NCBI GenBank assembly: GCA_937897085.1
Contig: CALCOR010000337.1
Location: forward strand, 1-13,650
Direction: 5' to 3'
Source: an uncultured euryarchaeote
GTDB taxonomy: Archaea; Thermoplasmatota; Poseidoniia; Poseidoniales; Thalassarchaeaceae
Length of the DNA: 13,650 nucleotides
Of this stretch, positions 6,527 through 8,752 are shown piece by piece. The notes beneath the pieces were generated by a model. That model did no database searches, had not been told where the DNA came from, and saw only the letters and a program-made list of their open reading frames with translations. Numbering within the stretch: position 1 is the stretch's first letter; each line of letters starts with the position of its first letter. The position numbers and the translations under genes were made by a program.

Positions 6527-8752
6527 TCAGAAGTCATCGAGTGAGCGTTGAGAAGCAGACGCTTCCGACTCTTCCTCCTCATCTAGAGGAGTATGTTCCA
6601 CGAGCAAGGAATCGAGTTGCTCCTCAGTCAGCACAGCGACATCGAGGCGGAGCGCCTTGTCGTGTTTCGAGCCGGGATTCTCTCCAGCGACCAGATGATG
6701 CAATTTTCCGGAGACCTGGGTGACCACCTTCCCTCCGGCCGCCTTGATGCGCAATGCGACCTCTTTGCGGGATCGAGAAAGTGTGCCTGTGATGCAGAAC
6801 GTCAGGCCCGACAATCCACCTTCCACAACCGCCACCGGCTGCTCATCGGTCACATCCAGCAGTCCCGCCAGTTCACGCACCATCTCCTTTCTCTCGGCCA
6901 GTCCAGATAGCAGCAGGTCGGCCACGGTGGCACCGACCCCTTCGATAACCATCAATGACCTCACGGCCCGGTTGTGCTTGTACGGCTTGCCGGTCTCGTC
7001 CTCGCCCGGCTCATCGCCGCTCGTATCGACCAGTTCCAGCAGCGCATCGAGTGTCAGCACCTCGGTAGCGACCACGGCAGCAATCTCCGGCCCGATGCGC
7101 GGCAGACCGAGCGCGGAGAGGAACTTCGACAGGGACATGCTCCTGCTGGCGTCGATCTCAGCGAGCACGTTCGAAGCGGACTTCTCCGCCATCCGCTCCA
7201 GACCCATCAGGTCATCCAAGGTGAGACTGTAGAGGCCCGGTATCGAATCGACCAGACCAGCCTCGGTCAGCAGTTCGGCACGCTTCTCTCCCACTCCGAC
7301 CAGTTCCAATGATTTGCACCAATAGATGAGCGCATGCACGCTCCTTGCGGGGCAATCGAGGCTGGTGCAGCGCAGGAACGCTCCGTCGACCACCAGTTCC
7401 GTCTCACACTCAGGGCAGTGCGTAGGAGGATCCACCTCCTTGCGCGGCGGCAGAGTTCCTGTGAACGGGCTGCCATCTGCGTGCGACCTTCCCTCAAGAT
7501 CAGTCTTCTTGGCCCGGCCGAGCGACGCCTCCACCTTGGGAATGACATCGCCGCGACGCACCACCCGTACCTTGTCGCCGATGCGCACACCTAGCCGTTC
7601 GACCTCACCGGCGTTGTGCAGCGTGGTGTTCTCTACCGTCACGCCTGACACCGTCACCGGAGCCACCCGCGCCACCGGGGTCACCGCACCGGTCCTGCCA
7701 GTCTGCCATTCGACATCCATGAGCACCGTCGTCGCCTGCTCGGGAGCGAACTTCCAGGCAAGCGCCCAGCGTGGATGGTGGGCGGTCTTGCCGAGAAGTT
7801 TACGCTTGTCGAGATCGTCGAGTTTGAACACGACTCCGTCGACCTCCCAAGACAGGTCGTCCCGGCGTGATTCCCAGTCCTCTGCCACGGCCTGCAGCGC
7901 TGCTGTCACCTGCTCATCGTCGTCACCTGCGATGACGCTTGTCGTGGCTGTCTCGATGCCCACCGACTGCATCCATTCGACAGCATCAGAGTCGAAATCG
8001 AACCACGGCCTGTCGGGAGAATCGGGATGGCGCTCCCCAGAGGAGGGAAAGCGGACATCGTAGGCATGGAACGAGAGATCTTCGGCGCGTCCCTTGCCCG
8101 CATCGACATGCTTCTGCCTGAGCGAGCCGGCGGCGAGATTGCGCGGGTTCGGGGATATCTCGGCGTAGCGTTCGCGGTAGATATCGAGCGGCATCACCAC
8201 CTCGCCGCGGATGTGGCAGTCACCCTCCCAGGAAAGCTCGAACGGGACGTTCGGGATGCGCCTCGCATTGGCGGTGACATCCTCGCCTCGCTCGCCGTTC
8301 CCTCGCGTCGCTGCTCTCACCAGTCTTCCTCGGCGATATTCGATGCTCAGGGCGCTGCCGTCGAGTTTCGGCATGGCGAGGAAGCGCCGACCGTGGGCGG
8401 TCGTCTCGGCGACGAAGTGAGCCAATTCCTCGGCATCGGTCGCTTTGTCGAGTGATTTCATCGGAAAGCGATGGGTCACCTTGACGGAACCGGGCGCAGG
8501 GTCAGCGCCCACACGCTGCAGCTGCGGATGGCCGGGGGCAAGTCGCTTCAACTCATCCCACATTTCGTCGAATTCAACGTCGGATATCTCGGGAGCGGCT
8601 TCGTTGTAGTAAAGATGCGAATGGTGGGCGATCTGCTCTGCCAGCGCCTCGATGTCCGCCTCGGCAGCGATGGCATCCTCCTCGCGTGCGCCCATCGCGT
8701 AGCGATGGGCGCGACCCCTGAAAAATCCATCTTCTCGCCCGAACAGCCTCAT
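6527..8752 (-). CDS. ligA: NAD-dependent DNA ligase with C-terminal PIP-like motif
   Basis: Seals nicks in duplex DNA using NAD+. Numbering from the ATG at 8752 (741 aa), domain Ia contains [20 protein letters not shown] (NMN site). Adenylation motif I is PKLDG, with nucleophile K129. Motif IIIa is IRGEVVMP (E184), motif [10 protein letters not shown] (D305), and motif [11 protein letters not shown] (K334). An OB-fold follows, then a zinc finger C446-C449-C462-C467, helix-hairpin-helix repeats and a BRCT domain (about 646-718). The acidic tail ends QRSLDDF (Q735, L738, F741), matching the core of a PCNA-interacting box. The residue two before the nucleophile is Met rather than the usual Glu. 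The ATG at 8752 overlaps the upstream stop as ATGA. A second ATG at 8695 fits family length equally well and would drop 19 basic residues. This bacterial-type enzyme is uncommon in archaea, so ancient transfer is likely. Confidence 0.96.

Follow-up and report, generated by a model that had tools for sequence, protein, structure and literature searches.

A predicted PCNA-docking peptide at the C-terminus of the bacterial-type NAD-dependent DNA ligase of Candidatus Poseidoniales

The window, a stretch of 13,650 nucleotides from a MAG of Candidatus Poseidoniales (Marine Group II, MGII), carries the ligA gene of an NAD-dependent DNA ligase that ends in the residues QRSLDDF. Sequence comparison across the order makes it highly probable that a bacterial-type ligase replaced the archaeal one in this lineage, and that the last seven residues of the enzyme are a predicted PCNA-docking (PIP-box) peptide. 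An exchange of replication proteins from one domain of life to another is considered difficult, since such proteins have to bind the clamp of their host. This abundant order of marine archaea apparently runs on a bacterial-type ligase with an archaeal clamp tag, which points to a borrowed enzyme adapted to the host machinery.

The LigA of the window is, as judged by profile matches, a complete NAD-dependent ligase of bacterial type. The domain profiles recovered the order Ia, adenylation, OB, zinc-finger, HhH and BRCT, and the curated equivalog cut-offs were passed for TIGR00575 (544.5 bits, cut-off 444.45) and NF005932 (526.1, cut-off 369). Two domains scored below their cut-offs, namely, the zinc finger (24.6 bits vs 25.8) and HhH_2 (20.4 vs 27). 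Residues K110, D112 and G113 of the KxDG lysine motif (KLDG in the window LigA) were invariant in alignment A2 (42 rows). A sequence-only reading of the window had named this enzyme type and described an acidic tail beyond the BRCT domain with QRSLDDF at its end. Type and tail were borne out by the profiles; with residue 715 of 741 as the last one in the BRCT match, the tail lies outside the matched domains. The identity of the last seven residues was likewise confirmed, but the range assigned to them (6527–6549) misses one base of the Q codon (codons 6530–6550). The nearest listed relative, P0001, has a LigA that is 92% identical and begins MGAREED, so translation likely starts at the ATG at 8695 and not at 8752. 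Among the named records found, the nearest LigA (93% identical) belonged to a Ca. Poseidoniales MAG record (L031). The MAG of the window is 85% complete and consists of 376 contigs. The coordinates of the gene and its parts are collected in Table 1.

Table 1 Features of the ligA gene in the window
Feature	Position	Strand	Remark
ligA, NAD-dependent DNA ligase	6527..8695	-	722 aa from the likely ATG at 8695; ORF open to 8752
C-terminal QRSLDDF, single-aromatic PIP-box-like core	6530..6550	-	stop codon 6527-6529
Acidic linker, poorly conserved, 19 aa, from BRCT match to motif	6551..6607	-	conservation from column information
BRCT domain of LigA	6608..6814	-	PF00533, residues 647-715
C4 zinc finger of LigA	7346..7420	-	PF03119 slightly below cut-off; 4 cysteines invariant in alignment A2
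OB-fold domain of LigA	7508..7732	-	PF03120
Adenylation domain with KLDG active-site motif	7739..8482	-	PF01653

Several other genes were observed in the window. A PAC2-family gene of the proteasome assembly chaperone type (5719–6525, plus strand) converges on ligA, and one base separates its end from the ligA stop. The plus strand also encodes a DnaQ-like exonuclease (3573–4391), the C-terminal part of which bears a weak resemblance to that of bacterial exodeoxyribonuclease X (36 bits, cut-off 202). On the minus strand lie a PDDEXK_1-family nuclease of the PD-(D/E)XK type that also matches Cas4 weakly, under the cut-off (4452–5624), a very long protein of at least 1441 aa that reaches the window end, matches PKD below the threshold and, on visual inspection, has a hydrophobic anchor at its C-terminus (9323–13648), and a second protein with a PKD domain (1682–2908).

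To describe the tail across the order, 115 genomes of Ca. Poseidoniales were searched and 112 LigA C-termini were taken; one genome gave no LigA match (G111), two gave N-terminal pieces only (G008, G098), and the named MGII loci L031–L051 were read as well but kept outside the 112 tails, with L051 masked. Failure of the tail to be conserved in archaeal homologues had been set beforehand as refuting a PIP box, and this outcome did not occur. A relaxed core, [STPAN]Lxx(aromatic) at most 15 residues from the end, was found in 104 of the 112 LigA, which are related sequences and not independent draws, and in 4.6 of 112 after the last 40 residues were shuffled. The strict form, Q..(hydrophobic)..(aromatic), was found in 88 of 112 (1.04 in shuffled tails), and the motif was present in 19 of the 21 genera. 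When no motif filter was applied, 66 of the 112 proteins ended exactly in F, Y or W; all 66 had L at −4 and D/E at −2, 65 had S/T at −5 and 59 had Q at −7. The motif formed the exact protein end in 67 of the 104 cases and lay within two residues of it in 33 more, and the composition of these proteins gives a chance of 8.6e-5 for Q..L..F exactly at the C-terminus.

The sequence before the motif behaved differently. Each of the 25 preceding columns held 0.6–1.3 bits, vs 1.2–4.3 bits in the motif columns, where the values for L, [STPAN] and the aromatic are inflated because these columns were picked by the motif; the unfiltered counts above are separate from this selection. The distance from the BRCT anchor to the motif ranged from 30 to 61 residues across the order, and one protein with 86% identity to the window LigA (P0002) has a different and longer linker, yet ends in QSSLDDF. 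A short peptide that is conserved in these alignments, while the linker before it is not, is what one sees with docking motifs. The window QRSLDDF fits the archaeal PIP form QxxLxxFx, with Q, a hydrophobic residue three on and an aromatic residue six on. The canonical two-aromatic Qxxhxxaa occurred nowhere in the 112 LigA of the order; the motif is therefore not classed as a canonical two-aromatic box, and is classed as the single-aromatic form, as in the FEN1 of the order.

The ligase repertoire of the order is narrow. LigA was found in 114 of the 115 genomes; none of the 115, 30 of which are at least 90% complete, gave a match to PF01068, the domain of ATP-dependent ligases, which did match in 6 of 14 control genomes. 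The genome of the window is included in this count, in agreement with the earlier suspicion that it has no ATP-dependent ligase. No other replicative-type ligase was found in the order, which leaves LigA as the enzyme that must seal the lagging strand. Table 3 of PMC4153887 (2014), the part of that source used here, gives MG-II without an ATP-dependent ligase and brackets the NAD-dependent ligase as a transfer from bacteria. In the excerpted text of PMC1684257, an NAD ligase is carried by a marine euryarchaeal fosmid, and the HF70_B12 ligase is placed at about 45% to spirochaetes. By word search within the text of these sources, "PIP" was not mentioned in PMC4153887 and "PCNA" was not mentioned in PMC1684257, and none of the matches listed from the open-licence literature was seen to describe an archaeal NAD ligase with a PIP box. 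Ligase replacement in MG-II is thus already in print, and what is apparently new, without this being proof of novelty, is that the sole ligase detected in the order carries a predicted clamp tag.

Outside the order, a second LigA type is carried by other Thermoplasmatota; among 194 genomes searched there were 55 of this kind, 13 of them with PF01068 as well and 42 with no detected ATP ligase (hand-counted overlap). As a side observation, LigA and the ATP-dependent ligase were nearly complementary in the Thermoplasmatota, with 102 and 98 of 194, both in 13 (hand-counted) and neither in 7. A canonical PIP tail was found in none of the 55 LigA tails. The loose pattern occurred in nine, namely, eight Q-less tails in family f5 and one spurious hit (L239, QRKVKSH). 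The f5 tails, in 8 of the 14 LigA-bearing genomes of the family (L116, L117, L120, L121, L123, L126, L131 and L137), end in TLDEFI, TLDEFF, PLDKFI, PLDKFM or PLDEFV-like sequences without Q, behind a charged linker. The FEN1 of f5 ends in the ordinary Q form, Q-x-[SN]-L-F-D-[FY], in 13 of 13 loci read, and for this reason the LigA tails of this family are at best degenerate PIP boxes; they are possibly a second, independent clamp tag. The LigA ends of L136 (f36) and L239 (f16), QTQKTLF and KQSTLL, look like cut-short PIP cores. A Qxxhxxaa string, QRPLDIFF, was present in 6 of the 55 LigA, five of which are loci with the Q-less f5 tail; it lies at residues 205–251 of 663–719, far from the C-terminus, and was rejected as a PIP box and taken for part of the adenylation domain. 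Among LigN-type proteins (120 matches to an archaeal LigN-like query, the named ones mostly from haloarchaea and nanohaloarchaea), the tail was found in none. The tail as a general property of archaeal LigA was rejected on these counts (0/120 for the LigN type; 9/55 in other Thermoplasmatota, eight of them Q-less f5 tails and one spurious).

Within the order, the motif was missing from 8 of the 112 LigA, i.e. in all six of genus g5 and in G019 and G027. An alternative internal PIP (Q..[LIM]..[FYW]) was found in none of the eight, and the FEN1 motif was kept in the tail-less genomes where it was read (G007, G015, G038, G019 and G027). The ligA stop of G019 (locus L003) stands about where relatives have Q, and the in-frame letters beyond it read SVLAEF before the next stop, which looks like the recent loss of a putative tag. 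The motif was also missing from P0003 (70% identical to the window LigA) and, in all, from 37 of the 120 nearest protein matches, 33 of which end in QP and are nearly all g5-like; P0017, counted among the motif-bearing matches, is a chance match at the BRCT end. Since g5, G019, G027, P0003 and LigA of other Thermoplasmatota are without the tail, a LigA with no second ligase detected beside it can, on the genomes compared, do without one, both in the order and in other Thermoplasmatota.

This bears on what the tail would be used for. It may bind PCNA but serve repair patches, with Okazaki-fragment sealing able to go on without it, a reading compatible with the best explanation and given a minor though appreciable chance. 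Genus g5, with no tail in 6 of 6 genomes and no ATP ligase found in any of the 115 genomes of the order, speaks for such a use, as do the other Thermoplasmatota whose LigA has neither a detected ATP ligase beside it nor a canonical PIP. However, LigA is the sole replicative-type ligase found and so must seal the lagging strand, and the data here do not separate the two uses.

The same motif was found on an archaeal-type replication protein of the order. Of 40 genomes searched, 33 gave a FEN1 match, always just below the curated cut-off of the family (E-values of about 1e-91 to 1e-103), and 30 of the 33 were read. In 30 of 30 loci the same single-aromatic motif ended at most two residues from the C-terminus, with Q in 26 and K/R in 4; examples are QTSLFSF, QSTLFDF and QPTLFDF. 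The window's own MAG, which is 85% complete, gave no FEN1 match. The archaeal FEN1 PIP box sits at the C-terminus. The second aromatic had been noted beforehand as absent from the window tail; the two-aromatic form is absent from all 112 LigA, and its absence is the norm in the order, because FEN1 is single-aromatic in 30 of 30 loci too. With this, the PIP-box interpretation of the sequence-only reading is supported at the level of sequence. In the part of a review on H. volcanii that treats this form, Fen1 is counted among the PIP-box proteins and the archaeal PIP form is given as QxxLxxFx.

A candidate receptor was found in relatives of the window's genome. PCNA_N (PF00705) was matched in 52 of 60 genomes of the order, and a protein search of the eight PCNA-missing genomes and two others added G002 (two pieces) and G032 (an end piece); in the window's own 85%-complete MAG, PCNA was found neither by PF00705 nor by the protein search. 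G017, of genus g7, is a genome in which all three of LigA, FEN1 and PCNA were found. In the single-contig genome G002, the PCNA gene lies in two adjacent pieces (G002:C1:1752833-1753578), perhaps through a sequencing error or a frameshift. The nearest solved structure to the PCNA of the order is A. fulgidus PCNA 1rwz (also 1rxm and 1rxz; E 1e-38). In 32 of 32 aligned PCNAs of the order, neither the LAPR at the C-terminus nor two prolines in the stretch that aligns with the interdomain loop varied, and we take LAPR and the loop prolines to border the PIP pocket.

The motif that LigA and FEN1 have in common points to a shared partner and does not itself give the identity of that partner; the tails might therefore dock another common partner or act as a stability signal. 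This is improbable in our view, since the motif agrees with QxxLxxFx, the archaeal PIP form in print (given in the excerpted review), the PCNA of the order keeps its C-terminal LAPR and loop prolines, and, in the portion of PMC4858679 drawn on here, the C-terminal single-aromatic box of EndoQ has measured PCNA binding.

Bacterial LigA was sampled with 188 sequences, comprising 56 from GTDB contigs, 12 plasmid-borne ones from several phyla and 120 protein matches. The sample is lopsided, which is the weak point of this control: by record title, Bacteroidota account for 52 of the 56, each of the 120 shares 65% identity or more with a Flavobacteriales LigA, and spirochaetes are represented by a single sequence. 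One locus (L107), a 106-residue match with 72% identity to the window LigA, was excluded from the bacterial count. A C-terminal PIP-like motif was found in 0 of 188 (56 + 12 + 120). A second outcome set beforehand as refuting, a tail equally common in bacterial LigA, did not occur in any set (0/56, 0/12 and 0/120, mostly Bacteroidota). A search for the bacterial beta clamp (PF00712) gave no match in 40 genomes of the order, against matches in 10 of 14 control genomes.

These counts weigh on the idea that the tail is a beta-clamp-class motif kept from a bacterial donor. The bacterial motif (QL[S/D]LF) does resemble the PIP class, and published excerpts report that the ligases of E. coli and H. 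pylori contact the beta clamp and that the M. tuberculosis ligase does not. Such a tail in 0 of 188 bacterial LigA, mostly from Bacteroidota, the beta clamp in 0 of 40 genomes of the order and the same motif on the archaeal-type protein FEN1 all stand against this origin, which we hold to be very improbable; an inherited bacterial motif was rejected on the first two. A chance C-terminus, or shared ancestry without function, is scarcely credible even though 8 of 112 genomes manage without the tail and the sequences are related, so that counts are not independent, for shuffled tails yield 4.6 of 112, exact-end composition odds are 8.6e-5, the adjacent linker is far less conserved, and the motif survives linker turnover at 86% identity in P0002.

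The best explanation is still a bacterial-type ligase that replaced the archaeal one and ends in a predicted PCNA-docking peptide. The ancestor of Poseidoniales would have acquired an NAD-dependent ligase of bacterial type, the archaeal ATP-dependent ligase would have been lost in that ancestor, and the acquired LigA would have gained a flexible linker with the terminal Q-x-[S/T]-L-x-[D/E]-[F/Y/W]; the order of gain and loss for the tail and the ATP ligase is one that we infer. The peptide is predicted to insert in the hydrophobic pocket beneath the PCNA interdomain loop, where the FEN1 tail should dock too. A LigA tethered to PCNA may be held at the lagging-strand nicks left by FEN1 and polymerase, with a presumed effect on ligation, and the flexible linker would let the enzyme close round DNA while tethered. 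For the archaeal ATP ligase and PCNA, the title of the work of Pascal et al. in 2006 reportedly suggests an enzyme that closes on DNA while tethered.

A quick tree of 64 rows (45 MGII, 8 of the 55 other Thermoplasmatota and 11 bacteria) gave some view of this history. The MGII LigA formed one group (45 rows, SH-aLRT 99) in which both main branches carry the motif, and the eight other Thermoplasmatota formed a separate group (99) placed among the bacterial rows. The minimum number of motif changes among the 45 MGII rows is three, and because the motif is on both main branches this reads as three probable losses, although change counts by themselves do not distinguish gains from losses. The tree is not a safe guide to deeper placement or to the donor, as most bacterial rows are very long branches and false joins may occur. 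Identity between the window LigA and the one Treponema locus is 30%, and a viral scan gave one distant locus (L359, 31% identity). We infer a bacterial origin of the MG-II LigA, which is in print for MG-II and is not resolved by the present tree.

We advance more tentatively, as a possibility that sequence comparison raises, that the PCNA-docking tail was the step that enabled the takeover of the lagging strand and the permanent loss of the ATP ligase, and that the weaker Q-less tail arose independently in the LigA of f5. If this is true, clamp-tagging would be a repeatable route to domesticate a foreign replication enzyme. Natural controls exist in the untagged haloarchaeal LigN beside an ATP ligase, the untagged LigA of other Thermoplasmatota in which no ATP ligase was detected and the genus that lost the tag, and the need for clamp docking in a replicative ligase is therefore testable by comparison and with purified proteins.

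The Poseidoniales LigA can be set beside several known systems. It shares the entire domain architecture of bacterial LigA (TIGR00575), whereas the C-terminal PIP-like motif was absent from the 188 bacterial sequences sampled. The LigN of Haloferax volcanii and the LigN-type proteins of haloarchaea and nanohaloarchaea are also bacterial-type NAD ligases in archaea, and a passage of PMC1684257 presents archaeal LigN as laterally acquired; unlike the Poseidoniales LigA, the LigN type is without the tail (0/120), and H. volcanii retains a redundant ATP-dependent ligase according to the excerpted review. The archaeal ATP-dependent ligase is replicative as well, and the P. furiosus enzyme has a PCNA site in the published excerpts; however, it belongs to another enzyme family with another cofactor, and the P. 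furiosus box described there is internal and short (QKSFF), whereas that of LigA stands at the very C-terminus. FEN1 with its C-terminal PIP box has the same motif in the same place and the same genomes as LigA (30/30 loci), but it is an unrelated enzyme, and position 5 is F in FEN1 and often G, S, D or L in LigA. The EndoQ of Thermococcales also carries a C-terminal single-aromatic PIP-like box with measured PCNA binding; in the part of PMC4858679 that describes it, the T. kodakarensis enzyme has QRSITEFL as its last residues, and its apparent KD for PCNA1 is 55 nM. By analogy with this case, single-aromatic C-terminal boxes can work. EndoQ differs from LigA in that it is a repair endonuclease and involves no replacement of a replication enzyme. 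Putative bacterial EndoQ homologues bear beta-clamp-like motifs instead (same part of PMC4858679), and thereby provide a precedent for host-matched clamp tags.
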